Of a stretch of DNA of 33,757 bases, positions 3,933 to 30,191 are shown piece by piece. A program made the translations under genes and the position numbers. The DNA lies in contig NYTS01000099.1 of assembly GCA_002683655.1 (NCBI GenBank), positions 1 through 33,757 on the forward strand. The letters run 5' to 3'. Source of the DNA: Deltaproteobacteria bacterium (GTDB taxonomy: Bacteria > SAR324 > NAC60-12). The notes beneath the pieces are model-generated. The model saw nothing but the letters and a program-made list of their open reading frames with translations. It did not search any database and was not told the DNA's origin. The stretch's first letter is position 1; the number at the start of each line of letters is the position of its first letter.

Positions 3933-4154
3933 GATTGAAACTTTCTGATGGAGAGACCTGCCTTCTGATCCTGGAAGCCAAGTGAGAACAAGAGACAACG
4001 GAACTTGTCCCAGGTGAATTTTCAATGCCCAGCTTCCTAGCCCAGCCCTTAAAAATCTGCCAGTGCAAGCTTCGACATTGCACAATCGAAGATTTTTCAC
4101 GTCCAGCAGCACGGCTACCTTCACTGCAAAAGGGGAAGCAGCCAATTTCCATCT

Positions 4155-4412
4155 CTATCTATCCCTTGCGGAAACACCCTGAGTTGGATGATTCTCAAGC
4201 CAAGGATTCGCAAATGTGGGGTCAGTAAGAAATCCTTGATCCGTCAAACCTTCCAAAAACGCAATCACAGCAGAAGTTTTCTGCTGGTTGGCCCGTAAAG
4301 GTCGGATCAGCTCAGACTTGAGCGGACTCTCTCTGCCATCCCCAGCATCCTACGTAACGATACCTTCATTGACAATCAAAGGGAGCATTGCCGACAACCA
4401 GGCATGATTTGT
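4155..4412 (-). pseudogene. C-terminal remnant of a di-heme cytochrome c peroxidase/MauG-like protein
   Basis: Reading the minus strand, an open stretch ends at a TAG at 4155-4157. It encodes IRPLRANQQKTSAVIAFL and then LTDQGFLTDPTFANPW, matching the C-terminal consensus of the MauG/CcpA family (LxPLxLTxxEkxdLvaFLxaLTDexfltDPrFanP). The same frame continues upstream as TNHAWLSAMLPLIVNEGIVT but is broken by a TAG at 4350-4352. No heme-binding CXXCH is present, and no start codon or ribosome binding site fits. I infer a decayed 3' fragment of a periplasmic di-heme enzyme gene. The family call rests on about 50 residues, so it is moderate at best. Confidence 0.42.
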
Positions 4413-4813
4413 TGAACCAAACGTTTTTTTACAAAGACCAAGATTGCGTTTGCTCTCAGACTTCCTTACAACCATCAACTCTACAACAAACCAACTCTCA
4501 CTTGGAGTAAGAACTGGCGCAGAGGAACCGGGTACAAACTCACAATTTTGAGAAGACTGGATTTAGTATGTGTTTCCTGAATGCAAAGTGGAAAGTTGTT
4601 GTTTTAGAAAAAGGCTGGCTATCAGAAATCGGAGTAGAAAGCAAAAAGCAACCTGAAAATTTGCAATGGATGTGAAGTGGCCACCGTGTCAAGCTTTGAA
4701 GTACCAGGGAATCAGAAACTACATTAATGATTTAGGGAGTTCGCAGCTCCACGTGCTCAAGGATGTTTTCTCCAGAAATCTCTGAACTGACCCAACCTGT
4801 AAAAGGAATGATC
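4413..4813. other. Intergenic region upstream of the dpp operon
   Basis: About 400 bases without a convincing gene. It is AT-rich and presumably holds the dppA promoter and leader. I see no confident -35/-10 pair, riboswitch-like structure or long palindrome. The ribosome binding site of dppA (AAAGGA at 4802-4807) lies at its right edge. The left edge may contain further decayed sequence of the peroxidase-like remnant. Confidence 0.4.
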
Positions 4814-6406: not shown

Positions 6407-6459
6407 TCCACAAAACTGCAGAGCTTTTGGGCTCTGCCCCTCCCCATCAAGGAGATCCC

Positions 6460-7560
6460 TTGACCGATCGATACCTACCCTTTCGCCAGGTTGCCAAAGA
6501 TCTTGGCGTCGAAGCTTTGGCGCTGGTGCCTGGCTGTAATTTTGAGCGTCTTTATCGCAAGAGCTTCTCCAGTCACGAACGTCCACTGGTTGTGTTCATT
6601 CCAGCACAGGGAGATCCTGCTGCGTTGGTGCCCAACCTAGAGTTGCGTTCCTTTGATCTGCTCAACTTTGAGGGAGCAGTGTTTGACTGGCGAGATCAAA
6701 CAGGCTATCAAGGTGCTTTTGAAGCCTTAGCCGCTCACCTGCCGATGCAATCTGTGGCCGTGGAAGGCCAGGTGATGAGAGTGTTCGTTCACCATGCGAT
6801 GGCCAAAGCATGGCCTCAACTGACCATCGTGGATGCTGAAAAACAAATCTCTGGTTTGCGGCTTCGCAAAAATGCTGAAGAAATCGAAGCCCTTGAGCAG
6901 GCCATCCGAATTTCACAGAATGCTCTGGCAGACGTCATCAAAAAGGTCCGTCCCGGATTAACTGAGACCGAAGTGGAGACTCAATTGGTGCAAGCACTTT
7001 TTGCAAATGGTGCCAAGGAGCAGTCCTTTCGGCCAATTGTAGCCGCTGGTGAGAATTCAGCTCGACCTCATGCCCACGCCCGACCTGACTACCAGATCCA
7101 AGCTGGTGATGCTTTGCTGATTGACTTTGGGGCTCGTTGGAGTGGTCTCTGCGCTGACATCACGCGGACTTTTTTTGTAGGACACGCCAGTGACGAAGCG
7201 CAGGAAGTCTACCAGACCGTTCTGAATGCGAACCAAGCTGGTCATGCCCTCGCTTCTCCAAAAGTGACCGCACACCAAGTGGATGATGAGGTCACCTCTT
7301 TATTGGAAGCTTCCTCGTATGCAGACCGAATTCGCACCAAGACTGGTCATGGATTAGGTCGCGCAGTTCATGAAGATCCCTATATCATGCGTGGTAATCA
7401 CCAGCAGTTGGATACTGGAATGGTCTTCACGATTGAACCTGGTCTGTACCGAGTGGCTCCCGATGGCTTTGGTGTCCGTATCGAGGATGATGTTTTGGTC
7501 ACCGAAGATGGTTGCCGATCCTTGACCACCTTCTCCCGAAGCCTGACCGTGATTGGCTGA
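6460..7560 (+). CDS. M24 family metallopeptidase (Xaa-Pro dipeptidase/aminopeptidase type)
   Basis: This is a cytoplasmic dinuclear-metal peptidase of the pita-bread fold, probably cleaving imported Xaa-Pro or other dipeptides. The start is TTG at 6460, set by a strong AAGGAG at 6449-6454 with five-base spacing; this gives 366 residues. Residues 1-130 form the creatinase/prolidase N-terminal domain. The catalytic domain shows all five metal ligands: D222 (IDFGA), D233 (CADITRT), H297 (TGHGLG), E326 (TIEPGLY) and E342 (RIEDD). The auxiliary HAHARPD loop is also present. It sits between dppA and dppB, and its stop overlaps the dppB start (TGATG), so uptake and hydrolysis are likely translationally coupled. 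Prolidase or aminopeptidase P specificity cannot be separated from sequence. Confidence 0.93.
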   Translation: MTDRYLPFRQVAKDLGVEALALVPGCNFERLYRKSFSSHERPLVVFIPAQGDPAALVPNLELRSFDLLNFEGAVFDWRDQTGYQGAFEALAAHLPMQSVAVEGQVMRVFVHHAMAKAWPQLTIVDAEKQISGLRLRKNAEEIEALEQAIRISQNALADVIKKVRPGLTETEVETQLVQALFANGAKEQSFRPIVAAGENSARPHAHARPDYQIQAGDALLIDFGARWSGLCADITRTFFVGHASDEAQEVYQTVLNANQAGHALASPKVTAHQVDDEVTSLLEASSYADRIRTKTGHGLGRAVHEDPYIMRGNHQQLDTGMVFTIEPGLYRVAPDGFGVRIEDDVLVTEDGCRSLTTFSRSLTVIG

Positions 7561-8567
7561 TGCTCCGCTACCTGCTCTCCAAGCTGCTAACCTTCCTGCC
7601 GACTTTTTTTGGGGTAACCCTGATCTCCTTCTCCTTCATTCGTGTGCTTCCCGGCGATCCGATCATCGTGATGGCTGGTGAGCGAGGGTTGAGTGACGAA
7701 CGCTACCAGGAGTTGCTCAAGCAGTTCGGCTTTGACCGTCCCTTAATGGAGCAATACTTCGATTATCTCTCCGGAGTACTGCAAGGCGATCTTGGTCAAA
7801 GCTTTGTTACCAAGCGTCCAGTCTGGGATGAATTTTTCGCATTGTTTCCCGCCACGCTGGAGCTTTCTCTTTGTGCCATGATCTTTGCGTTATTGCTGGG
7901 CTTACCAGCCGGAATCATCGCAGCTGTCAATCGGGGAAAACTGTTCGATCGTGTATTGATGTCATCAGCCCTGATTGGCTATTCGATGCCAATCTTCTGG
8001 TGGGCCTTGCTGCTGATCATCCTGATGTCCGGCTGGTTGGGGCTGACACCGGTTTCCGGACGAATCAGCCTGCTTTACTTCTTTGATGATCCAACCGGCT
8101 TCATGATCTGGGATGCACTACAGTCTGAAGAATCAGGGGCCCTAGGTTCAGCGCTGCATCACTTGATTCTGCCAACCATCGTACTTGGAACGATCCCACT
8201 GGCGGTGATTGCCAGGCAGACCCGATCTGCAATGCTGGAAGTGCTTTCTGAAGACTACATCCGAACCGCCAAAGCCAAGGGACTGGCTCCCTTTCGGATC
8301 AATGGAATTCATGCGCTACGAAATGCAATGATTCCGGTGATCACAGTGATTGGGCTCTCTGTCGGAACATTGCTGGCTGGAGCCATCCTCACTGAGACCA
8401 TCTTCAGCTGGCCAGGCATTGGGAAGTGGATGGTTGATTCCATCTTCCGTCGAGATTATCCAGTAGTCCAGGGAGGCTTGTTACTGATTGCCGTGATGGT
8501 GATTATCGTCAACCTGTCGGTCGATGTGCTTTATGGCCTGATCAACCCAAAAATCCGGAAGCGCTGA
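7560..8567 (+). CDS. dppB: Dipeptide ABC transporter permease DppB
   Basis: This inner-membrane permease of the peptide/nickel importer family has 335 residues (E. coli DppB has 339). The N-terminus MLRYLLSKLLTFLPTFFGVT and the segment SFIRVLPGDPI are typical. Several further hydrophobic spans follow, and the cytoplasmic EAA-type loop that contacts the ATPases appears as EDYIRTAKAKGLAPFRI. The C-terminal IFSWPGIGKWMVDSI and the ending YGLINPKIR are family hallmarks. The ATG at 7560 overlaps the peptidase stop by one base (TGATG). The ORF is open from 7512, but those upstream residues are out-of-family translation of the peptidase gene. It pairs with DppC to form the membrane channel. Confidence 0.95.
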   Translation: MLRYLLSKLLTFLPTFFGVTLISFSFIRVLPGDPIIVMAGERGLSDERYQELLKQFGFDRPLMEQYFDYLSGVLQGDLGQSFVTKRPVWDEFFALFPATLELSLCAMIFALLLGLPAGIIAAVNRGKLFDRVLMSSALIGYSMPIFWWALLLIILMSGWLGLTPVSGRISLLYFFDDPTGFMIWDALQSEESGALGSALHHLILPTIVLGTIPLAVIARQTRSAMLEVLSEDYIRTAKAKGLAPFRINGIHALRNAMIPVITVIGLSVGTLLAGAILTETIFSWPGIGKWMVDSIFRRDYPVVQGGLLLIAVMVIIVNLSVDVLYGLINPKIRKR

Positions 8568-9457
8568 TGAATACGGTCGCCCAAGCCGCAGAGCGTCCCG
8601 GACGGTTTCAAGAATTTTGGTATTACTTCCAAGAAAACCGAGGTGCTGTCTTTGGGCTCTGGATTTTTGGGCTATTTGTTGTCGTTGCATTATTGGCTGA
8701 TTGGATCGCCCCCTATGACCCAACCGTTCAGTATCGAGAGCATCTGCTCCAACCTCCATTCTGGCAAGCAGGGGGTAGTCTGGCTTTTCCATTGGGAACA
8801 GACGCAGTGGGAAGGGATATGCTCTCAAGAATACTGTATGGAGCACGCTACTCCTTTTACGTTGGAATCGTGGTCGTAATGGTATCGGCAGCTGGAGGCA
8901 TTGTAGTGGGGTTGCTCTCCGGTTTTGCTCCCAAATGGCTAGACACGATCCTGATGCGGGTGATGGATATCATTCTCGCTTTTCCATCCCTGCTGCTAGC
9001 GTTGGTGCTGGTCGCAATTCTGGGCCCCTCACTGACCAATGCAATGATCGCAATTGCGATTGTTCTGCAACCCCACTACGTCAGGCTAACCCGTTCCTCA
9101 GTACTTGCGGAGTGTTCCAAGGACTACGTGACTGCTGCCAAGGTCACTGGTGCCAAGCTGCCACGGCTGATGTTCATCACAGTCCTCCCAAACTGCCTCT
9201 CACCAATCATTGTTCAGGCAGCCTTGTCCTTCTCCACTGCAATTTTAGATGCTGCTGCCCTCGGTTTTCTGGGGATGGGCGCACAACCTCCAACTCCTGA
9301 ATGGGGAACGATGCTGGCCGAAGCCCGAGAGTTTATCCTACGAGCCTGGTGGGTGGTGACTTTCCCCGGCCTAGCGATTCTGATTACCGTACTGGCAATC
9401 AATCTGATGGGGGACGGACTCAGGGATGCCCTCGACCCCAAGTTGCGGAGGAGTTGA
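8567..9457 (+). CDS. dppC: Dipeptide ABC transporter permease DppC
   Basis: This is the second inner-membrane permease of the dipeptide importer, with 296 residues (E. coli DppC has 300). The N-terminal OppC-type domain covers about residues 10-60 (YYFQENRGAVFGLWIFG). PLGTDAVGRDMLSRILYGAR is the family signature preceding the channel domain. The ATPase-contact loop reads KDYVTAAKVTGAKLPRLMF. The C-terminus GWVVTFPGLAI-like stretch (here WWVVTFPGLAI) and DGLRDALDPKLR are typical. The ATG overlaps the dppB stop by one base, and dppD starts three bases after its end, so coordinated expression is expected. Confidence 0.95.
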   Translation: MNTVAQAAERPGRFQEFWYYFQENRGAVFGLWIFGLFVVVALLADWIAPYDPTVQYREHLLQPPFWQAGGSLAFPLGTDAVGRDMLSRILYGARYSFYVGIVVVMVSAAGGIVVGLLSGFAPKWLDTILMRVMDIILAFPSLLLALVLVAILGPSLTNAMIAIAIVLQPHYVRLTRSSVLAECSKDYVTAAKVTGAKLPRLMFITVLPNCLSPIIVQAALSFSTAILDAAALGFLGMGAQPPTPEWGTMLAEAREFILRAWWVVTFPGLAILITVLAINLMGDGLRDALDPKLRRS

Positions 9458-9460
9458 CGA

Positions 9461-10435
9461 ATGTCCCTGCTCGAAATTCGCAACCTGTCTGTTGATTTTG
9501 CTACTTCGTTGGGAGCTTTCCGAGCCGTCGATGCAGTTGATGTAACGATTGAACAGGGCGAGATTCTAGCAATTGTGGGAGAGTCTGGTTCTGGGAAATC
9601 CGTCGCGATGCTTGCTGTGATGGGACTCCTTCCCTGGACGGCAACCATCACCGCAGATCAGCTAATTTTTGACGGAAAGGACCTTCGACAGCTGACCCCC
9701 AAGCAAAGGCGGAAGCTGATTGGCAAGGACCTGGCGATGATTTTTCAGGAGCCAATGTCTTCGCTGAATCCCTGCTTCACAGTTGGATTTCAGCTCAAGG
9801 AAGCCTTGCGTCAGCATCTTGGTCTTGATCGAAAAGAGAGGCAGCAGCGCGCAGTCGAGATCATAGAGATGGTTGGCATCCCAGCCCCGGCAGAGCGTTT
9901 GAACCTATTTCCCCATCAGCTCTCTGGGGGAATGAATCAACGGGTGATGATTGCGATGGCTATCGCCTGCAATCCTAAACTCCTAATTGCTGATGAGCCA
10001 ACCACGGCATTAGATGTGACGATTCAAGCCCAGATTCTGGACTTGCTTTCTGATTTGCAGAAAAACTTTGGAATGGCCTTGATTCTAATCACTCATGACA
10101 TGGGAGTCGTTGCGGAAACAGCTGAGCAGGTGCAGGTGCAGTACGCAGGACAGAAAGTGGAAGAGCAACCCGTCTCATCCTTGTTTGAAACTCCACGACA
10201 CCCCTACACAGCTGCCTTGTTGGCAGCGCTTCCAGAGCGTGCGACCGGTAGGCATCTACTGACAATTCCAGGAGTCGTACCGGGGCAATTTGATCGGCCG
10301 GCAGGTTGTCTCTTCGCACCGCGATGTCAGTTCGCCAATCAGAGATGCCAGGAAACAAAACCTACTCCGCTAGGGGTCGAAGCTGCTTTTGCCCGCTGCC
10401 ACTTTCCTCTAGCGCTTGAGGGGGTTGTCAAATGA
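9461..10435 (+). CDS. dppD: Dipeptide ABC transporter ATP-binding protein DppD
   Basis: One of the two cytoplasmic ATPases energising the dipeptide importer, with 324 residues. Walker A is GESGSGKS (residues 40-47), the Q-loop lies in MIFQEPMSSLNP, the ABC signature is LSGGM (154-158), Walker B is LLIADEP (174-180) and the switch histidine is in LITHDMG. The C-terminal oligopeptide-transporter domain carries the cysteine pattern CLFAPRCQFANQRCQ followed by ARCHFP. In family members this region is known to bind an iron-sulfur cluster; whether it does here is inference. The gene starts three bases after dppC and its stop overlaps dppF by four bases (ATGA). Confidence 0.95.
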   Translation: MSLLEIRNLSVDFATSLGAFRAVDAVDVTIEQGEILAIVGESGSGKSVAMLAVMGLLPWTATITADQLIFDGKDLRQLTPKQRRKLIGKDLAMIFQEPMSSLNPCFTVGFQLKEALRQHLGLDRKERQQRAVEIIEMVGIPAPAERLNLFPHQLSGGMNQRVMIAMAIACNPKLLIADEPTTALDVTIQAQILDLLSDLQKNFGMALILITHDMGVVAETAEQVQVQYAGQKVEEQPVSSLFETPRHPYTAALLAALPERATGRHLLTIPGVVPGQFDRPAGCLFAPRCQFANQRCQETKPTPLGVEAAFARCHFPLALEGVVK

Positions 10436-12504: not shown

Positions 12505-12873
12505 AAAGCCAATTTCAACTTGGAATTCTCAGCGTTTCATTGACTTCCTTCCGGCAATTTTGCCAAATTCTTCCTGCTTTTTTTGATCCTCTTCCGCCCA
12601 AAAAACGTCGATTTCTGCTGATCACACTTTTCGGTATGAATTTGGGATTAATTCGTTTCAATTGAACCAGAGAGTCCAGATTCTCAGCTGAAAAATGAGA
12701 ATTCATTGCGAATTTTTGTCAGATTATGGTAGAGAATAAGAAATATGTTACATTATTTAGACAAAATACGTTTTTCTTACAACGAATCTCAGCAACTCAA
12801 TAGGTTAAATCAGCACTATCCTAAGTCACTGTTGCCTAGGCTAGAAGACCAAATCCAAAGTTTGAAAAGAGGT
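12505..12873. other. Intergenic region before the tandem lipoproteins
   Basis: About 370 bases. An open frame in phase with the lipoprotein begins at 12745, but its translation (many polar residues, no family resemblance) precedes the signal sequence, so I treat it as leader. The stretch 12700-12760 is AT-rich and could hold the promoter. No clear -35/-10 pair, terminator or palindrome was found. Confidence 0.35.
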
Positions 12874-14919
12874 ATGGTGAATGTGGGAATGAGCAATAAA
12901 GTTGCTCAAATATTCAAGAAGCTGGGACCAATCCTGCTCCTCACCAGTCTTTGTTGGCTGCCAGTTGGCTGCTTTGTGCCTGATGATCTGGAAACTATCG
13001 CTGCTGAGAGCACCATTTATCCACCCCCACCTCCTGCTCCTGGCGTTAGCCTCTCCAAAACTACAGCAAGCGTCAGCGAAACTCTCACTACAGACAGCTT
13101 TACGATCAAGATGGACTCAGAACCTGAGAGCAATGTCGTGATTAATCTTTCTGATGATGACACTGGCGAAGCTACTATCTCTGCAAGTACGCTCACATTT
13201 ACATCGAGTAACTGGTCAGCAGCTCAAACCGTCACCATCACCGGAGTAGATGATGATTTTGCAGACGGTTCTCAAACAGTATTGATCACGATCTACGTAG
13301 ATAACTCCTCCGACGCCACCTACGCTGCATTAGATAATCAAACTGTTACCGTCACCAATACGGATGCTGGAGAATCACTGGGATTCACAATCACAGAAAC
13401 GAACAGTTCTACTTCCGTTACTGAATCGGGAGGCACTGACAATCTTTCTATTGTTTTAACCAGTGAACCGTTGGCAAATGTTGTCCTGAGCATTGCCTCT
13501 ACAGACACTGGAGAAGTTACCATATCGCCAAGTTCCTTAACCTTTACAGCTAGTGATTGGTCAACCCCTCAAGAGGTCACCATCACTGCTGCAGAAGATA
13601 ATATTATTGATGGTGTTCGTTGGTCAGGTGTGATGGTATCGGTTTCAAGCTCTGTCGATGCTTCTTATGCGGCTTTGGGAAGCCAATCCATTACAGCTAC
13701 CATCAATGACTCTAGAACAGGTCGTCAACAAGACAGCCGTATTTCTGCGGGTCTCAAGTATTATATCGCTGTGGATAATACGACAGGGACTGTTTACGCA
13801 TGGGGTGATGATACTTGTGGCGGAGATAACTATGGGAAATGCGATACCAATTTACAAAATTCGGCAGCAGTCACAGTTGGATCAGGGCCAATCTATCCAA
13901 GAATCTCAGATACTACTCCAGAGAACACAACACATCTAGGAGACAACTCAACTTCGACACCGATTGCAATGCCTTCAGTGGTTCCTACAAGTCCATTTCA
14001 AGTGCAATCCAAACGAAATACTAATTGTGTGATGAATTCAACTAGAGACAACGTGACTTGTTGGGGGAGAATCAACTACGACAATGGTTACGGGACAATG
14101 AACAGTTCAAGCATTTGGAATCTATTACATTCTGCTGGAGCCTTCTATGATTTAGTAATTCATCGAGAGGGTGGATGTGCCTTGAATGCAGATCGAACTG
14201 TCAGTTGCTGGGGATATGGACAGTATGGGGCATATGGAGATGGAACGTTAGGATATACTGCGGGCCTTAAAACACCGAGCATCACAAATGTTGTTGATCT
14301 GGCGGCAGGGCAAGATCATCTCTGTACTGTAGTTGATAATGGTACTGCTTGGTGCTGGGGTAGAGATCAGCAAGATCAGCTTGGAGACAATGCTGCCAAT
14401 AGTAATAACCGCTCTTCATTGCCTGTTGCTGTAGTTGGTGGTATCAGCAATTTCATTCAGATTGAAGCTTACTCTCAAACAACATGCGCTTTGACTGATA
14501 ATGGAACCATTTGGTGTTGGGGAGCCAATACCAATAGACAGCTTGGAGATGGGACAACAACAGACAGAGACTATCCCGTCCAAGTTCAAAACATCACTGA
14601 TGCCTTGGATGTCTATGTCGGAGACGGGACAGCTTGTGCTGCTGTAAATAAACGTTTGGATCTGAAATGTTGGGGGAACTACTACTTGGGCGATGATTCT
14701 TCAACTGCTTCTTCAACCCCAGTTACAGTAACAGAAACGAATGGCTGGGGTTCAACTTATACTTTTGATGATGTAGCGATTGGTCAAGCTTCTGTTTGTG
14801 CTTACAACTTAGTGAACAATCAGGTTTTTTGTTGGGGTGCGAATGCAGAAGGTCAATTGGGATTAGGCAATGTGCTTACACCTTACCGCACAATGCAAAA
14901 CACGGGAAGTCCGTTTTAA
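12874..14919 (+). CDS. Secreted lipoprotein with two Calx-beta-like domains and seven RCC1-like repeats (copy A)
   Basis: Predicted envelope lipoprotein: a hydrophobic signal (KLGPILLLTSLCWLPVG) ends at Cys33 when started at 12874. A proline-rich linker (PPPPPAPG) follows, then two Calx-beta-like modules at about 58-164 and 168-280 (DTGEATIS..LTFTSSNW..VTITGVDDD, a possible Ca2+ site). The C-terminal 390 residues contain seven repeats of an RCC1/alpha-tubulin-suppressor type, each ending in CWG, as in CALTDNGTIWCWG, and probably folding as a seven-bladed propeller. In repeat 1 both cysteines are replaced (YYIAVDN, YAWG). The start is ambiguous: ATG 12874, GTG 12877, ATG 12889 and an open frame from 12745 all remain possible; AAGAGG at 12867-12872 favours this cluster. 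It is tandem to copy B. Binding or adhesion is a guess. Confidence 0.85.
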   Translation: MVNVGMSNKVAQIFKKLGPILLLTSLCWLPVGCFVPDDLETIAAESTIYPPPPPAPGVSLSKTTASVSETLTTDSFTIKMDSEPESNVVINLSDDDTGEATISASTLTFTSSNWSAAQTVTITGVDDDFADGSQTVLITIYVDNSSDATYAALDNQTVTVTNTDAGESLGFTITETNSSTSVTESGGTDNLSIVLTSEPLANVVLSIASTDTGEVTISPSSLTFTASDWSTPQEVTITAAEDNIIDGVRWSGVMVSVSSSVDASYAALGSQSITATINDSRTGRQQDSRISAGLKYYIAVDNTTGTVYAWGDDTCGGDNYGKCDTNLQNSAAVTVGSGPIYPRISDTTPENTTHLGDNSTSTPIAMPSVVPTSPFQVQSKRNTNCVMNSTRDNVTCWGRINYDNGYGTMNSSSIWNLLHSAGAFYDLVIHREGGCALNADRTVSCWGYGQYGAYGDGTLGYTAGLKTPSITNVVDLAAGQDHLCTVVDNGTAWCWGRDQQDQLGDNAANSNNRSSLPVAVVGGISNFIQIEAYSQTTCALTDNGTIWCWGANTNRQLGDGTTTDRDYPVQVQNITDALDVYVGDGTACAAVNKRLDLKCWGNYYLGDDSSTASSTPVTVTETNGWGSTYTFDDVAIGQASVCAYNLVNNQVFCWGANAEGQLGLGNVLTPYRTMQNTGSPF

Positions 14920-14988: not shown

Positions 14989-17382
14989 ATGATGAGTAAA
15001 TCAAAGCTTCTTATCTCGGTTATACTACTATTCATAGCAGCTTGTAGTCCTCCTAGCCCATGCGATATGGGAGCTTCAGCACTGTCCTGTGATAATGAAG
15101 TCACTACAAAAAAACCAATTGGCTCTTGGACAGTTACAGAAACCAGTAGCAGCACGTCGGTTAGCGAATCTGGATCAACAGACACCTTTATTGTCGAGTT
15201 GGCAACACGAGTACCCGACGGTAATGTGATCGTTGATATCAGTTCAAGTGATACAGGTGAAGTGACTGTCTCTCCAAGTTCACTGACTTTTTCTTCAGAT
15301 AATTACACCACTACTCAGACAGTGACGGTCACAGGGATCAATGACAATTTAGACGATGGAAACATTACTTCTATAATTACTCTGACTTTCAATGATTCAC
15401 AGAGTGCTGATGAAAGTTATGAGGCACTTACTGATAAGACCATCTCTGTCACAACTACTGATGATGATACAGTCGGCATTACTGTTACAGAATCTAGTAG
15501 CTCTACAACGGTTGCAGAATCAGGTTCTACCGATAATTTTAGTGTTACTTTAGCGTCTCAACCTCTAGATAATGTCACGCTATTGATTAGTTCTGCAGAT
15601 ACAGGTGAAGTTACCATTTCTCCCAATAACCTGACTTTTACAACTGGGAATTGGTCAATTGCTCAGGAAGTTACTGTGACAGGTATTGATGATTACATTG
15701 TTGACGGGTCTCAAAGTGTTTTGATCACAATTACCGTGGATAATACATCTGATAATAATTATTCCAATCTTGCAGATAAAACTATAACTGTTTCTAACAC
15801 TGATTCTGGTGATACAGTTGGCATTAATGTTTCAGAAACGAACAGTTCTACTTCCGTTACTGAATCAGGAGCTACAGACAATCTGAGCATTACCTTCAAC
15901 AGCGAACCACTAGCTGATGTCATTTTGAATATTGTCTCTGCAGATACAGGGGAAGTTACTGTTTCACCAAGCTCGCTCACCTTTTCATCGGGCAACTGGT
16001 CTACTGCCCAAGAGATCACTTTGACTGCAGTAGAAGACAACATCATCGATGGCATTCAATGGAAAGGTGTTAGCGTATCTGTTTCAAGCTCTGTGGATGC
16101 TTCTTATGCGGCTTTGGGAAGCCAATCTATTACAGCTACCATCAATGACTCCAGAACAGGCAGACAGAGAAACAATTACATTTCTGCAGGATTGAAGCAC
16201 TACTGTGCCTTGGACAATTCTTCTGGAATCGTCTACTGCTGGGGTGATGACACTTGTCAGGATGACACTTTTGGGAACTGTGATTATGACCTGCAGAATT
16301 TAAATGTCTCAACAAAAGGATCTGGCCCAATTTATCCCAGAGTTTCAGGCACTGCCCCAGATAACACAACACATCTTGGAGATAACTCAACCAGTGCGCC
16401 ATTGGCAATGCCTTCGGTGGTGCCTTCTAGTCCAACACTTATTGCTTCTTCTAGAAACACAAATTGCGTTACCAATTCAACAATGGACAACGTGACTTGT
16501 TGGGGAAGGTATCGAATGAACAATTATGGAATTGATTCTGGGTCTAGCATCTGGAGGCAGTCTAATGCAGCCAATTCTATTCTAGATATGGAAATTGGTA
16601 GAGAACACGGTTGTGTGATTTGGAGTGACCGAACTGTCAAATGTTGGGGTTATGCCAGAATGGGGGCCATTGGCGATGGTAATTCCACTTACTATACAGA
16701 CCCCGGTACAGCAGCTACTGGAATCACAAATGCTGTAGATCTAGCAGTAGGCCAAGATCACTCCTGTGTCTTGATTGACAATGGCACAGTCCAATGTTGG
16801 GGCAGAGATCAATCTGGGCAACTAGGAGATAATACTTTTAATACAGGAGGAGTTAATGGTGGTGCTGATGACGGATCACATAGTCCTGTTTCAGTTTCTG
16901 GAGGTATCACAAACTTTATTCAGATCTCTGCCTACTCAGGTTCAACCTGTGGCTTGACTGACAATGGCACGATCTGGTGTTGGGGATCCAATGCTGATGG
17001 TCAATTAGGGGATGGAACAACTACAAATAGAGATTACCCTGTACAGGTGTCAGGAATTGATAATGCCTTAGATGTCTATCTTGGAACAGCAATTGGCTGT
17101 GCTGCAATAGACAACCGAACCAATCTCAAGTGTTGGGGTAATTACTATTTAGGTGATGGGTCAACAACTGGTTCTACTACGTCTGTCACGGTTACGGAGA
17201 CAAACGGCTGGGGGTCAGATTACACCTTTGATGATGTAGCCATCGGTCAATCTTCTGCGTGTGCTTACAATTTAGCGACCAATCAGTTGTTTTGTTGGGG
17301 ACTCAATGCTGATGGGCAGTTAGGACTGGGCAATACCTTGACCCCATACAGTACGATGCAAAACACGGGAAGTCCGTTTTGA
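14989..17382 (+). CDS. Secreted lipoprotein with three Calx-beta-like domains and seven RCC1-like repeats (copy B)
   Basis: A 797-residue paralogue of the preceding gene, 69 bases downstream. The signal peptide MSKSKLLISVILLFIAAC has a good lipobox (IAAC, Cys19). Three Calx-beta-like modules occupy about 46-157, 161-270 and 277-385, each with DTGEVT(V/I)SP..LTF and a following acidic loop such as TGIDDYIVDG; copy A has two. Residues about 395-797 hold seven RCC1-like repeats, all with a C-x(8-11)-CWG pair (CVLIDNGTVQCWG, CGLTDNGTIWCWG). The start is ATG-ATG at 14989/14992, without a strong ribosome binding site. Both copies end in the same residues (MQNTGSPF). Surface-exposed ligand binding is likely from the architecture, but no enzymatic motif is seen. 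Confidence 0.88.
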   Translation: MMSKSKLLISVILLFIAACSPPSPCDMGASALSCDNEVTTKKPIGSWTVTETSSSTSVSESGSTDTFIVELATRVPDGNVIVDISSSDTGEVTVSPSSLTFSSDNYTTTQTVTVTGINDNLDDGNITSIITLTFNDSQSADESYEALTDKTISVTTTDDDTVGITVTESSSSTTVAESGSTDNFSVTLASQPLDNVTLLISSADTGEVTISPNNLTFTTGNWSIAQEVTVTGIDDYIVDGSQSVLITITVDNTSDNNYSNLADKTITVSNTDSGDTVGINVSETNSSTSVTESGATDNLSITFNSEPLADVILNIVSADTGEVTVSPSSLTFSSGNWSTAQEITLTAVEDNIIDGIQWKGVSVSVSSSVDASYAALGSQSITATINDSRTGRQRNNYISAGLKHYCALDNSSGIVYCWGDDTCQDDTFGNCDYDLQNLNVSTKGSGPIYPRVSGTAPDNTTHLGDNSTSAPLAMPSVVPSSPTLIASSRNTNCVTNSTMDNVTCWGRYRMNNYGIDSGSSIWRQSNAANSILDMEIGREHGCVIWSDRTVKCWGYARMGAIGDGNSTYYTDPGTAATGITNAVDLAVGQDHSCVLIDNGTVQCWGRDQSGQLGDNTFNTGGVNGGADDGSHSPVSVSGGITNFIQISAYSGSTCGLTDNGTIWCWGSNADGQLGDGTTTNRDYPVQVSGIDNALDVYLGTAIGCAAIDNRTNLKCWGNYYLGDGSTTGSTTSVTVTETNGWGSDYTFDDVAIGQSSACAYNLATNQLFCWGLNADGQLGLGNTLTPYSTMQNTGSPF

Positions 17383-17495: not shown

Positions 17496-18056
17496 ATGTT
17501 CAATCAAGATGATCTGCAACGCCTCAAGGAAACCAACGCTTGTCCAGAGGGGAACTTGTCGGAGGCTTTACTAGTCGGGGCCAACTTAGAGGGAGCGCAT
17601 CTGACGGGAGCCAACTTGTTCATCGCAGTTTTGAAGGAAGCCAACCTGCAACAAGCTTTGCTGAGCGATGCCAAGCTGGAGCTGGCGATGTTGCAGAAGG
17701 CAAATCTACGAGAGGCTCATCTTTGATATGCCAACCTTTCATATCCCAACATGCAGGGAACTTCAATGCAAGGGGCGGATCTGACGGGAGCCAATCTCGA
17801 AGGGGCCGATTTGGAGGGAGCTAATCTAGAAGGGGCCAATCTACAAAAAGCTCATCTGGAAGGGGCCAACCTGAGCTACGTAAATCAGCAACGTGCCAAT
17901 CTGGACGGGGCCAGTCTGATCTATGCAAGAACCATCAAGACGCTGCTCGGAGGAGCCCGTCTTTGCAACACGACCATGCCGGACGGACATATTGAGTACA
18001 GCGGTTGCGCTTACCATCCCTTCTTTGACGAAAAAGTCGAATCTCCAGACGAATAA
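17496..18056 (+). pseudogene. Pentapeptide-repeat protein gene interrupted by one in-frame TGA
   Basis: One frame runs from ATG 17496 to TAA at 18054-18056 and is broken only by TGA at 17724-17726. Before the stop: the N-terminal LQRLKETNACPEGNLSEA motif, common in this family, then A(N/D)LxxA pentapeptides ending NLREAHL. After it: YANLSYPNMQG and then ADLTGANLEG-type repeats and the usual C-terminal cap LCNTTMPDG. The interrupting codon sits where an Arg or similar residue would be expected (a CGA-to-TGA change would explain it). Pentapeptide repeats form a right-handed quadrilateral beta-helix of generally unknown function. Except for this codon the gene of 186 codons is intact, so recent inactivation, readthrough or sequencing error are all possible. 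A restart at ATG 17751 is conceivable. Confidence 0.85.
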
Positions 18057-18118: not shown

Positions 18119-19609
18119 TTACCTCTGCAGACGGTTCGGATAGACCTTCAATAATTTGAACAGATCGGGTCGGTCCAAGTTGACTAGATCCGCATTCAAG
18201 GCCTCAATCTGCTGAAGTTTCGACAAATCGTGGGTGAGGCTGAAAGCCATCGCTCTCACTCCCAAGGCTTGGCATCTTGCAATCTCGGTCAAGTCATCTC
18301 GCCCCAATTCGTACTCGACGATGTCAGCCTGGTATTCAGCAATTGCTGCTTCTAAGCTCGGATACATCCAGCGGGTGGCCATCAATTGGGCTTTCGGCTC
18401 AAGGTTTCGAATTCTTTGAAGGACTTCCGTTTTGCGGCACCAGAAAAACACATCATCCAGCATTGCGTGAGCAACTACCAGCTCCAGCACCCGATCCGGA
18501 TCAGCGTCCTTGATCTCGACATAGGCCCCACACCGACTACGACAATGCACCAGAAATTCATCAAGGGTGGGGACCCTCGTTCCAGCATAAATCTCTGAAT
18601 AAGATGACCCTGCATCCAACTGACGGACCTGCTCCAGCGACAATTCTCGGACTAGGCCCTTGCCATTTGTTGTTCGATCCACAGTGTCATCATGCATCAA
18701 GACAATCTCACCATCCGCCGTGGTCCGCACATCGATCTCGACTAGATCAAAGCCCTGTGAAATGCAGATACTGGCAGCAGGCAGGGTGTTTTCAGGTGCC
18801 AGAAAGTTGGCTCCACGATGGCAAACCATCTTGGGGATACCCTGTGAAGCACGAGGCCAAGGTTTGAGAATTTCAGGACAGTCCGAGCAAATCCCCAAGA
18901 TGGGCAAATCATCGAGTCCTCGAAGGACCTCCACTCGTTCTTCATCCCAGGTCACCAACGCCATGCCTTGTTGCTGACAGCGGCTCACCAGTTCCTCAGT
19001 CACTAACTCATGAGGAGTGGAAGAGGCTCGTTTCCAACAAAGATGAATGATGTCTGGCGAAGCAACAGCGCTGTATTCGAAGGGATCCACACCAATTGGT
19101 ATCAGCACAGAGAGCGGATACGAACACTTTGCCCGACGCAGTTGAGCAATCCAGTCCGCATAAAAGGATCCGATGACAGCATATTGGAAGTCATGTTCTT
19201 GCAGAATTTGCCAAGTGGATTCTGCAGCTTCAGCTGCCTTCAGTTCAATGTAAAGTCCAGAGTGGGTTCGTCGGGCTAGTTCAATCACCTCCTCCAGTCG
19301 GGGTACTCGCTGGTTTCCCAGCAGTTCGACTGCACTGATCTCTGCCCAAGTGGCATTTTGTATTAGCAGTGGAATTGCCCCCACTCGCTCCAAGCTTTCA
19401 TCATGACAAACCACCACGACCCCATCTCTGGACAATCGCACATCCAGTTCCCACATTTCAGCGCCCAACTCCCCAGCCAGTTGAAACGCCTCCAGCGTGT
19501 TCTCCGTCCGATAATTACTGGCACCTCGGTGAGCAATTGCTAGTGGTAAGTGCAAATCTTCAACACTAGGCCACCCGAAGCGCGCCATCCATTTTTGATT
19601 AAAGTTCAT
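18119..19609 (-). CDS. Glycerophosphodiester phosphodiesterase, two fused GDPD domains
   Basis: This 496-residue protein hydrolyses glycerophosphodiesters to glycerol 3-phosphate and an alcohol. Unusually it contains two GDPD barrels. Domain 1 (about 20-250) has H27-R28 (AHRGAS), E36 (ENTLEAF), E54/D56 (WELDVR) and H69 (CHDESLERV). Domain 2 (about 258-490) has H264-R265 (CHRGAN), E273 (ENTLPA), E291/D293 (EIDVR) and H307 (MHDDTVDRTTNGKG). Both keep the metal and acid/base residues, so both could be active; domain 2 is nearer the consensus. No signal peptide is seen, so a cytoplasmic role is likely. It is divergent from the ABC importer starting at 20080, whose ATPase is of the UgpC type, consistent with uptake and hydrolysis of glycerophosphodiesters or related sugar phosphates. 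Confidence 0.94.
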   Translation of the reverse strand: MNFNQKWMARFGWPSVEDLHLPLAIAHRGASNYRTENTLEAFQLAGELGAEMWELDVRLSRDGVVVVCHDESLERVGAIPLLIQNATWAEISAVELLGNQRVPRLEEVIELARRTHSGLYIELKAAEAAESTWQILQEHDFQYAVIGSFYADWIAQLRRAKCSYPLSVLIPIGVDPFEYSAVASPDIIHLCWKRASSTPHELVTEELVSRCQQQGMALVTWDEERVEVLRGLDDLPILGICSDCPEILKPWPRASQGIPKMVCHRGANFLAPENTLPAASICISQGFDLVEIDVRTTADGEIVLMHDDTVDRTTNGKGLVRELSLEQVRQLDAGSSYSEIYAGTRVPTLDEFLVHCRSRCGAYVEIKDADPDRVLELVVAHAMLDDVFFWCRKTEVLQRIRNLEPKAQLMATRWMYPSLEAAIAEYQADIVEYELGRDDLTEIARCQALGVRAMAFSLTHDLSKLQQIEALNADLVNLDRPDLFKLLKVYPNRLQR

Positions 19610-20079: not shown

Positions 20080-21447
20080 ATGTTGAAAGTGAGTTTGAAA
20101 CGCGCATTGACTGGATTTGTGATGCTTGCCACAGCAGCCAGTTTGCCTTTTAGTCAAGCAATCGCTAGGGATTTGACCATACAGGTATGGGCAGGTGGCT
20201 CTAACGTCGCCGACGCCTACCGTGTTGACGCTATTACCATGGCAGCAGACATCCTCGAAAGAGAGGCGGCTATTCGTGGTGAAGAGTTAAACATCACTGT
20301 TGAGACGAAGTACGACTTTGATGGATGGGGTGGTTTTAAGCAGGCAGTGACACTGGCCGCAGAAGCCAATAATGCCCCACACATCGTAGTAACAGGCCAC
20401 GAAGATATCGCGCCATGGTCTCAGTCTGGTTTGATTCGGCCAATCGAAGATTATGTTGATTTCGACAGCTGGCCTCTTAGCGATCTGTTCGAGAATCTAA
20501 TTGAGATTTCATCTTTTGAGGGAGTCATTTATGGAGTCCCTCAAGATGCGGAATCACGGCCGTTCTTTGCTTGGATCCCTCACCTCAAGGCCATTGGCTA
20601 CAGCGATGCTGATATTCGTGCTATGCCAGAAAAGGTGCAGAGTGGTCAATACACCTTGGACGATGTATTGAATGATGCCAAGAAAATGCAAGATGCAGGT
20701 CTTGTCGAAGCAGGATATGGTTGGTATCCCCGTGTTTCGAAGGGTGGCGACTACTGGCAGTTCTATCTCTCCTATGGTGGAGAGATGCTGGATAGCTCCA
20801 CTGGAAAATTGGTCTTCAATAAGGCCGCGATGCAAAAAGTTTATGAATTTTTTGCAAAAGCTGTCGAAATGGGAATTACCCGTAAAAACCATATCGGAAC
20901 CCCCTGGGATCAATGGTACTCCGAGGTCGCTTCCGGTAAAGCTGGTTTGTGGCATGGAGGTACCTGGCACTATGCGCGATATACCGGCAAAGAGGGGCTT
21001 CAAGACTTCTTTGGCAGTGTGATGTTTAGCTTGATTCCAGCCGGGGACAGCAACGGTAGCGCGAATACCATTACTCACCCCTTGGTCTATCTGGTGACAA
21101 ACCGAGGAAGTGATGATGATGCAGCAGTAGCCGCCCAATTGATAGCTATTGCTTCAGAGCCTCGCATCAACACGCTGCATGCAATCAAGTCTGCACATCT
21201 TGGCATTGCCAAGTCACAGCAGTCTGTACCTCTTTACGCTAATGATCGCTGGGCTAGTGAAGCGACCGTTCGCCTGTTGCCCTATGCCAGTGCTCAACCC
21301 AACCACACAGGTTTCTCACCCTATTTTGATGCAATGTGGAAGGGACTTGAAGCCAGTTGGACTGGTCAGAAATCTCCTGCAGAAGCTATTGCTGATGTGG
21401 AGTCTGAGCTGAAAGCCCAACTCGGAGGTGACATCCTCATCCGCTAA
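20080..21447 (+). CDS. Extracellular solute-binding protein family 1 (sugar or glycerophosphodiester type)
   Basis: This is the periplasmic binding protein of the ABC importer that follows, with 455 residues. The start is ATG 20080, with GGAGG at 20069-20073. The Sec signal peptide (KRALTGFVMLATAASLPFSQAIA) is cleaved near AIA-RD. The mature protein opens DLTIQVWAGG and continues with the family-1 hallmarks: a hinge-region stretch APHIVVTGHEDIAPW, YGVPQDAESRPFFAW, and WYSEVASGKAGLWHGGTWHY near the ligand cleft. It is aromatic-rich there, as in carbohydrate-binding members. It is the first gene of the cluster, and a stem-loop follows its stop. The neighbouring GDPD and UgpC-like ATPase suggest glycerol-phosphate-containing substrates, but the ligand is inference. 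Confidence 0.93.
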   Translation: MLKVSLKRALTGFVMLATAASLPFSQAIARDLTIQVWAGGSNVADAYRVDAITMAADILEREAAIRGEELNITVETKYDFDGWGGFKQAVTLAAEANNAPHIVVTGHEDIAPWSQSGLIRPIEDYVDFDSWPLSDLFENLIEISSFEGVIYGVPQDAESRPFFAWIPHLKAIGYSDADIRAMPEKVQSGQYTLDDVLNDAKKMQDAGLVEAGYGWYPRVSKGGDYWQFYLSYGGEMLDSSTGKLVFNKAAMQKVYEFFAKAVEMGITRKNHIGTPWDQWYSEVASGKAGLWHGGTWHYARYTGKEGLQDFFGSVMFSLIPAGDSNGSANTITHPLVYLVTNRGSDDDAAVAAQLIAIASEPRINTLHAIKSAHLGIAKSQQSVPLYANDRWASEATVRLLPYASAQPNHTGFSPYFDAMWKGLEASWTGQKSPAEAIADVESELKAQLGGDILIR

Positions 21448-21520: not shown

Positions 21521-22832
21521 ATGAGTTTATCTGCAAAACTTGGCTATGTTTTTATCGCCCCTGCGCTTATATTAGTTGCTGTCTTTTTTTTGACGCCAGT
21601 GGTACTCACAGGCATCTTCTCCTTCACAAATATGAGTACAGCCACCGGGATTACAGGTGGTGCCTATCAAATCACACCCTCACTCCTTAGGGATCTCTCT
21701 GACCAAGGCTTCGAAAAAGCAAATCTGGATAGCATTGGTTCCGAGAGTTACGAAATTGCTCAAGCCACTTTACAGATTGCCCGTAACGCTGGTACAGAGC
21801 CTTCCTTACTAGCAGAACTTGAAGAAGAACATCTTGGGCAGAACTTCAAGAGCCGTAGAGAATTCGAACGTTTCCTAAAAAAAACTACAAAACCGACCAC
21901 GTAGTACACGTGAACTGAAATCAACCTCACCATACTTCAGAAAATCGCTGATCAATGAGCGGTTTGAGACAGAAACTGATTTGAAAGCTGCGCTTGCTGA
22001 GCTGCAAATTGAGCTTACTCCTTATCAAATCAATACGCTCAGCCAGGCTGCCTACACTGGATGGGTATGGACAACAGATAATTTCCACAAGATGACGATC
22101 CTCCCAGAGACAAAGCAAATACTCTTCAACACGATCATCTATGTCACCTTCACCTTGCTGCTCTTCAACGTGGGCTTTGCGCTAGTCCTGGCTATCGCCA
22201 CCTTTTATTTACCGAAGGGGCAAGCAGGAATTTTTAGAGCTCTATGGCTTCTACCCCGCATTTCACCCTCTGTGCTTTATGTTGTGCTCTGGAAGTGGCT
22301 GACTTGGGACACAGGATTTTTGAACGCCATCCTGAATCCTCTAGGTGTCGCACAGCGCAACTGGATGTTGGATACAACTCTGAATGCATGGGTCTTTGTT
22401 GTGCTGATCAACGGATTCATTGGTGCTTCGATGGGAATGATTCTGTTCTCCAGTGCCATCACAGCGATTCCCAAACCATTGCTTTATGCGAGTGAGGTTG
22501 ACGGAGCCAATCGCTGGCAACAGATTCGCTTCATCATCTTGCCACAGTTAAAGTGGCCGATCCTCTTTGTGACGGTCTATCAGTGTCTTTCCTTATTGAC
22601 ATCCTTTGAACAAATTCTGCTCTCTACAGATGGAGGACCCGGCTCTACAACGGAAGTCTGGGCTCTAGCGGCTTACCATAACGCTTTGGACAATTATTGG
22701 GGCAATTTACAATATGGATATGGAGCAGCCCTGGCTCTTGTGCTGGTTGTTATTGGTGTGATCATGTCTTTCATTTTTCTACGTTTTTTCCGCTTTCAAG
22801 AGTTGGTGCGTCAACCACGAATTGAGCAATAA
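21521..22832 (+). pseudogene. ABC sugar-type permease (MalF/UgpA class) split by a one-base homopolymer frameshift
   Basis: The first part, from ATG 21521, encodes MSLSAKLGYVFIAPALI and a charged periplasmic insertion, and runs into a stop at 21902-21904. The remainder, to 22832, is open in another frame (from TTG 21981 or further upstream). It carries the permease core, including the ATPase-contact EAA loop (ASEVDGANRWQQIRFIILP). The frames meet at eight As, 21877-21884: with seven As the reading would be FLKKLQNRPRSTRELKS without any stop, giving 436 residues. All other genes of this importer are intact. Possible readings are a sequencing error, a recent mutation, or slippage at the A run that yields some full-length protein. 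The insertion of about 150 residues between membrane spans 1 and 2 resembles the long MalF periplasmic loop. Confidence 0.85.
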
Positions 22833-22840: not shown

Positions 22841-23665
22841 GTGTCTCAAAACTTCAAAAATTGGCCTATTCTCACCGCTTTGGTGTTGGCAACCGTGCCG
22901 ATCGTGCTGATGTATTCCTATCTGGTGTTGGATACCGTCACTAATACGGAACCTGGAGGAATCCTGCCAAGCAGCTTTACCCTGGAACACTGGCGCTTTC
23001 TTTACGAGAACATTGAGGGGAAAGCAAACATCTGGCAGGTGACCCTAAACACTCTCGTTTTTGCCAGCTCCGTGATGTTACTGGTGCTCTCTGTTTCTTC
23101 AACAGCAGGGTACGCTCTCTCCCGCCTAAACATTCCTTTTCGTCGGGAATTTCTTGCAGGAGTTTTGATTTTACACGCTTTTCCTTCGATCACTTTGATC
23201 ATTGCAATCTTTCTGATTCTGCAGTTGATTGGGCTCTACAACACGCTCATCGGAGTGATTATTGTGATGACATCGCTCCAACTCCCACTCGGTATTTGGA
23301 TTATGAAAGGATTCTATGACTCCGTGCCTTGGGAGATCGAGATGGCAGGATTGCAGGATGGTGCTAGTCGTTTCACGGTTTGGTATCATCTTGTCCTCCC
23401 CCAGGTCCGTCCGGGGATTATCGCCTTAGGTGTGTTCTCTTTTCTCTCTGGCTGGGGAGAGTACATCCTACCAACCGTTTTGGCGCCAGCGAATAATGTT
23501 CAGGTACTTTCTGGCTACTTGGCTTCCCTTATCGCAGATGATCGAAATTTTGAATTCAATCTCTTCAAATCAGTGGGGCTCTTCTATGCGACTCCCGTTG
23601 TAATCATGTATCTGTTCTTTCAAGACAAATTGATGAACATCTACGGAGGAGGAACCAAAGGCTAA
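22841..23665 (+). CDS. ABC sugar-type permease, second subunit (MalG/UgpE class)
   Basis: This inner-membrane permease partner has 274 residues. It starts at GTG 22841, nine bases after the first permease ends, with AAGGG about ten bases upstream. Six hydrophobic spans are visible, the first at LTALVLATVPIVLMYSYLVL. The EAA loop that docks on the ATPase is EIEMAGLQDGASRFTVWYHLVLPQVRPGI, of which the EMAGLQDGAS part is typical of this class. The protein lacks a long periplasmic loop, as expected of MalG-type subunits. Its stop overlaps the ATPase start (TAATG). The open frame and coupling suggest the cluster is still translated. Confidence 0.93.
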   Translation: MSQNFKNWPILTALVLATVPIVLMYSYLVLDTVTNTEPGGILPSSFTLEHWRFLYENIEGKANIWQVTLNTLVFASSVMLLVLSVSSTAGYALSRLNIPFRREFLAGVLILHAFPSITLIIAIFLILQLIGLYNTLIGVIIVMTSLQLPLGIWIMKGFYDSVPWEIEMAGLQDGASRFTVWYHLVLPQVRPGIIALGVFSFLSGWGEYILPTVLAPANNVQVLSGYLASLIADDRNFEFNLFKSVGLFYATPVVIMYLFFQDKLMNIYGGGTKG

Positions 23666-24723
23666 TGGAAATCATTCTTGAAGATTTCACCAAACGCTTT
23701 GGTGAGGTGACCGTCATCGAAAAAATGAACCTGAAGATTCGGGAAGGTGAACTGCTCGCACTTCTGGGTCCATCCGGATGTGGCAAATCAACCACTCTCT
23801 TCACAATTTGTGGAATTCATCGGGTTGATGGTGGACGTGTCCTATTTGGAGATCAGGATGTCAGTCGTGTTCCAGCCCAGCAACGCAACGTGGGTGTCGT
23901 GTTCCAGTCGTATGCGCTCTATCCTCATATGAGTGTTTTTGAAAACATTGCTTTTCCATTGACTGTCCGCAAAGAGCACAAAAACACAATCCGTGAGAAA
24001 GTCGCTGAGATTGCTGAGTTAGTTCATATTGGAGAATTATTAAAGCGACGACCCGAGCAGCTCTCTGGCGGTCAACAGCAGCGTGTTGCTCTTGCAAGAG
24101 CATTGGTGCGCAAACCTAGTATCTTGCTTCTGGATGAACCCTTGGCAAACCTGGATGCCAAGCTCCGTCTTGAAATGCGATCTGAAATCCGGCGGATTCA
24201 GTTGGAAACTAGAATCTCCGCAGTACTGGTGACTCATGATCAGGTTGAAGCGATGAGCATGAGTGACCGGATTGCAATCATGAAGGAGGGTGAGATTCTA
24301 CAAGTTGCTTCTCCCACAGAAATGTATCAACAACCGATCAATGATTTTGTAGCTGGTTTCTTGGGTAACCCACCAATCGCTTTTCTGGATGCACATGTGC
24401 AGGAGGGTGAAATTCATCTTTTGAACAGAAAAATTCAATTTAATTTTCCAGGCAGCTCCATGCCTACAAATGGGACGAAGATTCGCTTGGGTATTCGGCC
24501 AGAACACTACCAGCCCAACAACCCTATTCAAATCCCTGGAACCATCTCTTTCGTTGAAACCCAAGGACGTGAAAATCTATATGATGTGATGCTTGATGAC
24601 GGCAGCATCCTTCGCTCCATTCAATCCTCCGCTACGGAAAGCATTGAAAAAAGCGCTCAGGTCCTTTGGGGAATCCAGCCCGACAAAGTGCTGATTTTCG
24701 ATCAGGCAGGCAATCGAATCTGA
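23665..24723 (+). CDS. ABC transporter ATP-binding protein (UgpC/MalK type)
   Basis: This cytoplasmic ATPase of a carbohydrate or glycerol-phosphate importer has 352 residues. Walker A is GPSGCGKS (residues 35-42). The Q-loop is VVFQSYALYPHMSVFENIAFPL, the signature LSGGQQQRVALARALVRKP, Walker B ILLLDEPLANLDAKLR and the switch histidine VTHDQVEAM. The C-terminal 110 residues are the regulatory MalK-type OB/TOBE domain (RLGIRPEHY). The start overlaps the preceding stop. This class is often shared among importers, so it could serve others. The nearby GDPD gene makes a Ugp-like role attractive, but the symbol is withheld. Confidence 0.94.
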   Translation: MEIILEDFTKRFGEVTVIEKMNLKIREGELLALLGPSGCGKSTTLFTICGIHRVDGGRVLFGDQDVSRVPAQQRNVGVVFQSYALYPHMSVFENIAFPLTVRKEHKNTIREKVAEIAELVHIGELLKRRPEQLSGGQQQRVALARALVRKPSILLLDEPLANLDAKLRLEMRSEIRRIQLETRISAVLVTHDQVEAMSMSDRIAIMKEGEILQVASPTEMYQQPINDFVAGFLGNPPIAFLDAHVQEGEIHLLNRKIQFNFPGSSMPTNGTKIRLGIRPEHYQPNNPIQIPGTISFVETQGRENLYDVMLDDGSILRSIQSSATESIEKSAQVLWGIQPDKVLIFDQAGNRI

Positions 24724-24988
24724 TCTTTATTCAAGAAAGCTCTCGCCCCATTCTCTGTTTTCCAAAGTAAATTCAAACTTAGAAGTCGATCTCCGAATTC
24801 AATTCTGAAAATGGAATGCGCACTGTAGTTCACAAAACCGTCAACCAGTTACAACCACCTTCTCAAGAAGATCGTAGCCAAGCTGCAACTGTGGTAGTTC
24901 AGCTTCTCATGAGCATTGGATGCGAAGCTGGCCTTGCCTCAACGAGGTGGAAGTGAGGCGACCTCAAGCTTCCAGTGATTTTCCAGAA

Positions 24989-25830
24989 AAGATCATCCTG
25001 GGAGCCTCGAACCTTGAACGCTGCAAGGGAGTCTGAGAAAGCGCTTAGGTCATCCGTATAGCAAAAATTGGTGTTTTGTTGGCAACCGAAGTGGACTGGG
25101 GAATGGCTCGCTCCAAACATCACCACACCACCAAGGAACTGGCAGAACGATTGGGCTGGGGCTACGCTTTTAGAGTGGAGTTCGTCGAATTGGGATTGGG
25201 AGATCCGCCGGAGACAGCTGAGTTTAACGGAGTACCGAATGAGCATGGTCTCCATGGCAATGCCATCCTATCTCGGTGACCATTGCGAAAAATCAAACTG
25301 ATTGCGCTGGACAAAGGAGGTTTGTCGTTTGTCCTGTCACCTAAATAAGACGGGCAGCATAGAGTCGGTGGTCAAATGGCGATCGCTGCGCTTCTTGATA
25401 CGGAGAAAGGCCCACTTGGTTGTGTCGCTGTTCATTATGAAAGTGAAAGTAATCCAGATCATCGGAATCAGCAGACTCAGCGATTGATGAAATTGTTGGT
25501 GCAGGAATATGGAACGATTCCCATGGTGATTGGAGGCGACCTGAACACCAACACTCTCTCCGAAGCTCACACCAGTCAAACACAACGAAGAAATCAGCCA
25601 GAGTCTTGGGAGCCCAGCTTCTCCACTTTTGCAAATTACAATTTTCCATGGGAAACCACCAATACTGGCCAGACCACCACTCGTGGAGGCCCTCATGCAC
25701 CACACCAAACTCTCGACTGGTTACTGCTCAGATCCTGTCTGGGGAGTCAATCCCATGTTGTTCCCGCTCTCTTAAAATCAGGGAACTGCTGTCTGATCAT
25801 GAAATGGTTGTAACAACCGTCTCCTGCTAG
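24989..25830 (+). pseudogene. Endonuclease/exonuclease/phosphatase (EEP) family protein, multiply disrupted
   Basis: A single frame shows the family along its length: NLERCKGV, VLLATEVDWGMARSKHHHTT, NEHGLHGNAILSR, VAVHYESESNP and VIGGDLNT (metal-binding Asp/Asn), followed by the LDW segment. The final LLSDHEMVV (catalytic Asp-His) is in another frame. In-frame stops lie at 25034 (TGA), 25046 (TAG), 25277 (TGA) and 25346 (TAA), and a frameshift lies near 25765-25790. This amount of damage cannot be sequencing error. EEP proteins are Mg2+-dependent phosphodiesterases (nucleases, sphingomyelinases, inositol phosphatases). Lying directly after the ABC importer and near a GDPD, the ancestor may have hydrolysed a phosphodiester taken up by it. 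Its start is not recognisable. Confidence 0.86.
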
Positions 25831-29108: not shown

Positions 29109-30191
29109 CTAGAAGTAAATGGCTTGGCCTGTTTGGATGCTCTCCTCTGCAGCCAGTACAATCTTGAGACTATTGACAGCTGCTTCCATGGATTCAGATA
29201 AATCAAAATCCTGTTGGATCGCATCTAGGAACATCTGCTGCTCAAGGTTGCAAAGTTCCTGGTGGGAAGGTTCGTCGAGAGTATCAACAAACTCATCTTT
29301 CTTACGGAATTTTTTGCTGGTTGAATCCACTTCGGCATGGTGGATCTGGATCAGATTGGTTTTCGTATGCCGATCTATGTTTGCAGAATCAGTGACCTCT
29401 GTATCCTCCGAGGGCTGCTCTGAAGGAACGATCATCGAAACACACCCCTTCGGTCCGACAATATCCTTCACGAAGTAGGCGACTTCACTCATCATGGGCC
29501 CCCAACCTGCTTCATACCAGCCCACTGAGCCATCGTCAAACGTGACATGCAGATGACCATAGTTCTGTTTGTTAGCTTCTGCCCATAGCTTGGCTCCAAT
29601 TCCATGTACTCGAACGGGCTTGGCATCCGTCAACTGGCACATCACGTCAACATAGTGCACCCCACAGTCGACAATCGGAATCAGTGAGTCAATCAGGTTC
29701 TTATGCCAAAACCAAGTCTCTCCACTGCTCTGTTGATTGAGATTCAATCGCATCACCAACGGTTTGCCCAAGGTCTTACCGGCTTTAATAAATTTTACCC
29801 AAGACGGATGAACTCGAAGTATGTAACCTAGTACCAACTTTTTTTGGTGTTTTTTGGCTAATTCCACAACCTTGACTGCATCCTCTACATTCGTAGCCAA
29901 CGGTTTTTCCATGAAAACATGACAACCCTGCTCAATAGCCTGTGATGCGTAGCTTGCATGAGTGTTTGGCCAAGTATTGATGGAGACCGCATCTGGCTGA
30001 GAATCTTGGAGCGCCTTGCTGTAGTCTTCATAGATTGGATATCCCAGCAACTCCTTGGGGAGCTTGTCAAGCTTCTCGCGCAGGGTTCTGCTCATTAGGC
30101 CAACAATTTCGAAGCCAGGATTATTGTGGTAAGCCAGCGCATGAGAAGTCCCCATGTTCCCAAGCCCCACCACCAAGACTTTCACTGACAT
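29109..30191 (-). CDS. Gfo/Idh/MocA-family NAD(P)-dependent oxidoreductase
   Basis: A 360-residue cytosolic dehydrogenase. The N-terminal Rossmann motif is VLVVGLGNMGTSHA. The typical VSINTWPNTHASYASQAIEQGCHVFMEKPLA region contains the EKP motif whose Lys is catalytic. The C-terminal alpha/beta domain includes DCGVHYVDVMCQLTDAKP with the conserved Asp/His (DxGxHxxD type). The start ATG at 30191 has TGAGG upstream, which lies inside a short hairpin (annotated). It forms a pair with the monooxygenase (nine-base gap) and follows the binding-protein gene by 204 bases. Family members act on sugars, inositols or their derivatives; the substrate here is unknown. Confidence 0.92.
   Translation of the reverse strand: MSVKVLVVGLGNMGTSHALAYHNNPGFEIVGLMSRTLREKLDKLPKELLGYPIYEDYSKALQDSQPDAVSINTWPNTHASYASQAIEQGCHVFMEKPLATNVEDAVKVVELAKKHQKKLVLGYILRVHPSWVKFIKAGKTLGKPLVMRLNLNQQSSGETWFWHKNLIDSLIPIVDCGVHYVDVMCQLTDAKPVRVHGIGAKLWAEANKQNYGHLHVTFDDGSVGWYEAGWGPMMSEVAYFVKDIVGPKGCVSMIVPSEQPSEDTEVTDSANIDRHTKTNLIQIHHAEVDSTSKKFRKKDEFVDTLDEPSHQELCNLEQQMFLDAIQQDFDLSESMEAAVNSLKIVLAAEESIQTGQAIYF

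Follow-up and report, generated by a model that had tools for sequence, protein, structure and literature searches.

Organisation of the transporter locus

The window, which is the whole of contig C99 (33,757 nucleotides) of the marine SAR324 genome G000, carries a plus-strand transporter operon in the order solute-binding protein, permease 1, permease 2 and UgpC/MalK-like ATPase. The extracellular solute-binding protein (SBP_bac_1; 20080-21447), the MalG/UgpE-like permease 2 (22841-23665) and the ATPase (23665-24723) are intact, and permease 1 is divided into a 5′ part (21521-21904) and a 3′ part (21879-22832). A two-domain glycerophosphodiester phosphodiesterase (GDPD) gene (18119-19609, minus strand) adjoins the transporter. 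In Roseibium, Parendozoicomonas and Oceanospirillaceae, the same four genes are immediately followed by a GDPD-like open reading frame (ORF), which was identified there via its N-terminal sequence and not through a family scan. In loci L038, L044 and L047 (about 3000-10300), a conserved five-gene unit was found, consisting of a solute-binding protein, an insert-bearing permease, a second permease, an ATPase and a GDPD-like gene; in L044 and L047, a LacI-type regulator stands behind this unit.

The 3′ part of permease 1 scored 34.5 bits against PF00528 (BPD_transp_1), for which the gathering threshold is 26.4 and the intact orthologue reached 31.8, identifying the gene as an ABC importer permease. 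With this core and with a solute-binding protein and a MalK/UgpC-type ATPase in the same operon, it resembles the MalF/UgpA-type permeases. It differs from them in an approximately 135-residue soluble insert between the first transmembrane helix (TM1) and the core, in its linkage to a two-domain GDPD, and in scores far under the NCBIfam equivalog cut-offs, which were missed for both MalF (47.5 versus 392) and UgpA (33.7 versus 335). A glycerophosphodiester or a similar compound can reasonably be inferred as the substrate.

An eight-A run separates the two frames of permease 1

Reading of the window sequence placed a run of eight As at exactly 21877-21884 on the plus strand. The upstream frame starts with ATG at 21521 and encodes 127 amino acids, covering TM1, the first half of the soluble insert and six out-of-frame codons, before it ends at TAG 21902-21904. 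The downstream frame has a TAA (21876-21878) just 5′ of it, is then open from 21879 to the TAA at 22832, and encodes the rest of the insert and the BPD_transp_1 core, with TTG 21981 as its first possible start codon. The two frames overlap only in the tract and about 17 bases past it; therefore, any rescue would have to occur at, or just past, the As. The first-pass annotation had described an A8 tract at these positions that splits an ABC permease, with the frames meeting exactly at the run and all partner genes intact, and it was correct on each of these points.

An AlphaFold model of the orthologue from G003, the closest relative, in which the gene is intact, maps the break near residue 119-120, in the soluble insert after TM1. 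The model was used for placement of the break only, its membrane part being poor (mean pLDDT 58) and its insert better defined (pLDDT about 80-89). The truncated product contains nothing of the transport core. Reinitiation at TTG 21981 was considered and rejected, there being neither an in-frame ATG nor an obvious ribosome site, and TM1 would be missing from the product. A second copy of permease 1 in G000 was likewise discarded, the best other match being just 30% identical.

By itself, the A8 run is unremarkable. Two A8/T8 runs were observed in the window compared to 3.7 ± 2.5 in shuffled sequences, the other one being a T8 run at 21584-21591 (plus strand) in the TM1 codons of the same gene, which is in frame and of the same length in G003 and served as an internal control. 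What goes beyond chance is that the gene is split exactly at the A8 run and is open in 20 of 20 relatives.

Permease 1 is intact in all relatives examined

Orthologues from 20 records were compared: four belong to the same genus (SAR324), two to the wider family and 14 to other bacteria. Each of the four genus members possessing the gene has a single open permease 1 frame, spanning 472 (G003), 461 (G001), 440 (G004) and 440 (G005) codons from stop to stop. The frame is also open across the site in the family genomes SAR324 G015 and G018 and in the 14 records from other bacteria, which include Roseibium, Pseudovibrio, Parendozoicomonas and Oceanospirillaceae. At the site, which encodes a conserved Lys-Lys stretch, G003 reads CCTAAAAAAACTA with A7, G001 reads CTGAAAAAACTA, and G004 and G005 read CTCAAAAAATTA; in the genus members other than G003, the tract is broken by C or G (C+A6 or G+A6). 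A7 was also found in Parendozoicomonas and SAR324 G018. Neither a tract longer than A7 nor an out-of-frame state was seen among the 20 relatives. This check of tract length in relatives, which the first-pass annotation had proposed, bears out its claim that seven As restore the gene.

Across the transporter genes, the extra A is the sole frame-breaking difference from G003. Permease 1 aligns with that orthologue free of gaps apart from A8 versus A7, as a homopolymer frameshift allele does, and no second lesion was found in the gene against G003. A8, carried by the window alone, is thus the derived state. In G002, the sixth genus member, a close permease 1 orthologue is absent; going by this absence from a genome that is 88% complete, the importer may be dispensable.

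A slippage mutation or a consensus error

The interruption is best explained by a one-base slippage mutation in the sequenced lineage or strain leading to a truncated, non-functional permease 1, to which we assign a probability of roughly 0.55. The A7 run over the conserved Lys-Lys codons would have been lengthened to A8 by single-base slippage in permease 1 of a GDPD-linked ABC importer with four genes, of the MalFGK/UgpABCE type. Translation would then end six codons past the tract, so that the product would retain TM1 and half of the soluble insert but nothing of the transport core, and the importer would most likely be inactive in the A8 genotype.

Codon changes relative to G003 reveal an operon that is otherwise clearly constrained. 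The 5′ part of permease 1 has four nonsynonymous and one synonymous change, the 3′ part two and seven, permease 2 one and 12, and the ATPase none and five, respectively. With G001 as the reference, no change in the 5′ part is unique to G000, and one nonsynonymous change, at 22023, is. Since the 3′ remainder is undecayed, the event would be recent or confined to part of the population; taken together, the codon data point to an A8 that is recent, polymorphic in the population or an artefact.

The last of these is the main rival, according to which the consensus is wrong in the assembly or in sequencing and the organism really has A7 and an intact permease. We consider it a serious candidate, if clearly the less probable one. 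The constraint on the operon, with no nonsynonymous change among the five changed ATPase codons, the undecayed remainder of permease 1 and the intact state of all examined orthologues are consistent with it, as is the incomplete and fragmented G000 assembly (81% complete, 109 contigs). Against a real mutation, it also counts that the species is represented by one genome, in which a single wrong consensus base would look alike, and that an undecayed 3′ part is equally expected from an artefact.

Evidence against an error came from the alignment with G003 (234 kb, 95.1% identity). Long runs are mostly the same in both genomes, with 36 A/T7, seven A/T8 and three A/T9 runs of equal length. Twelve indels were found at A/T runs of at least seven, of which two clearly, and four at most, lie inside ORFs; with approximately 62% of such runs sitting in ORFs, this is a deficit at P of about 0.002-0.04. 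Because random consensus errors would not spare ORFs, most of the run-length differences are probably real variation. The ORF-avoiding pattern thus favours a real mutation, although bulk statistics are no proof for an individual site. Both genomes have scattered frame-breaking indels in recognisable genes, at a low rate, and G000 does not obviously carry many more split genes than G003; these counts are rough rates only, several of the listed split genes being stop-to-stop or contig-end artefacts.

Salmonella shows variation of the same class: approximately 12% of its loci with A/T runs of eight or more carried mutations (PMC8538453). As there, a run-length change goes with disruption of a gene whose orthologues in relatives are whole; unlike there, the organism is an uncultivated SAR324 known here from a single genome. 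If the base is real, one importer has been lost in one SAR324 lineage and substrate prediction for G000 is unsafe; if it is an error, the site calls for caution in annotation. General understanding is unchanged by either outcome.

Proposed rescue or switching by slippage

The first-pass annotation had further suggested that slippage at the tract keeps full-length permease at a reduced or switchable level. This part did not hold up: one base less is the disfavoured direction, and the relatives have neither A8 nor an out-of-frame state. Taken as a whole, the proposal that SAR324 either toggles its GDPD-linked importer by A7/A8 slippage or makes some permease via −1 transcriptional slippage appears highly unlikely.

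Leaky rescue, in which loss of one A during transcription or a +1 ribosomal slip yields some full-length permease, is improbable in our estimate. The frames do overlap in the tract, the orthologous protein would result from an A7 mRNA or from Lys-tRNA slipping by +1 within the As, and IS elements of Deinococcus and Nostoc have been inferred to use eight As for productive slippage (PMC1088944). Frame restoration in the RNA, however, requires the loss of one A or the gain of two. In E. coli reporters, rescue by deletion amounted to approximately 10% at T8 and was nil for E. coli RNA polymerase at the poly(A) runs included (PMC6260861). Genome-wide, insertions make up most of the transcription indels in homopolymers, and E. 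coli shows few deletions there (PMC5574713). A ribosomal slip of the common −1 kind, considered here at A AAA AAA, enters the wrong frame, and the T8 run at 21584 is of no help as an upstream slip site, since the 3′ frame meets the TAA at 21876.

Split genes rescued by slippage (PMC1088944; Citrobacter tssM, PMC4256274) are comparable in that two frames of one gene join at an A run. Here, by contrast, a deletion is needed, the run has only eight As and the gene is in frame in every relative. An out-of-frame layout with a slippery run, conserved as would be expected of programmed or rescued slippage, was not found among the relatives, all of which are in frame with a variable run. The run length at which bacteria avoid A/T tracts in their genes is nine in many genomes and perhaps eight in some (PMC1088944).

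Replicative toggling between A7 and A8 as a selected on/off switch is the least credible reading. The run is a natural slip site, and A7 is shared by Parendozoicomonas and SAR324 G018, yet the tract is not maintained, being interrupted in other genus members. Since no relative keeps A8 or the out-of-frame state, nothing points to a selected switch. A/T runs of at least eight are common within ORFs, numbering 16 across 311 kb of G000, and an importer permease falls outside the typical phase-variable surface structures. The stable, in-frame T8 run of permease 1 shows that eight-base tracts are tolerated and do not entail switching. A one-base slippage mutation thus remains the preferred reading, with switching and rescue both unlikely.

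Other features of the window

Adjoining the operon, an apparent endonuclease/exonuclease/phosphatase-like gene (24850-25813) is a remnant that is split among several frames in G000 as well as in G003; the two differ there by a further base at 25788. It seems to be an older pseudogene and had no DNA match in G001, G004 and G005. The oxidoreductase gene at 29109-30191 is only 86% identical to that of G003 (104 synonymous and 27 nonsynonymous codon changes); its neighbours reach 96-99%, which suggests a recombination event involving a more remote lineage. A pentapeptide-repeat gene (17500-18056) is distinguished from its G003 counterpart by two one-base indels near 17573-17576 and by a 15-base repeat unit at 17797. 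Positions 12745-14919 and 14989-17382 encode two neighbouring large proteins that resemble each other, with Calx-beta-like and then RCC1-like repeats, apparently the result of a tandem duplication.
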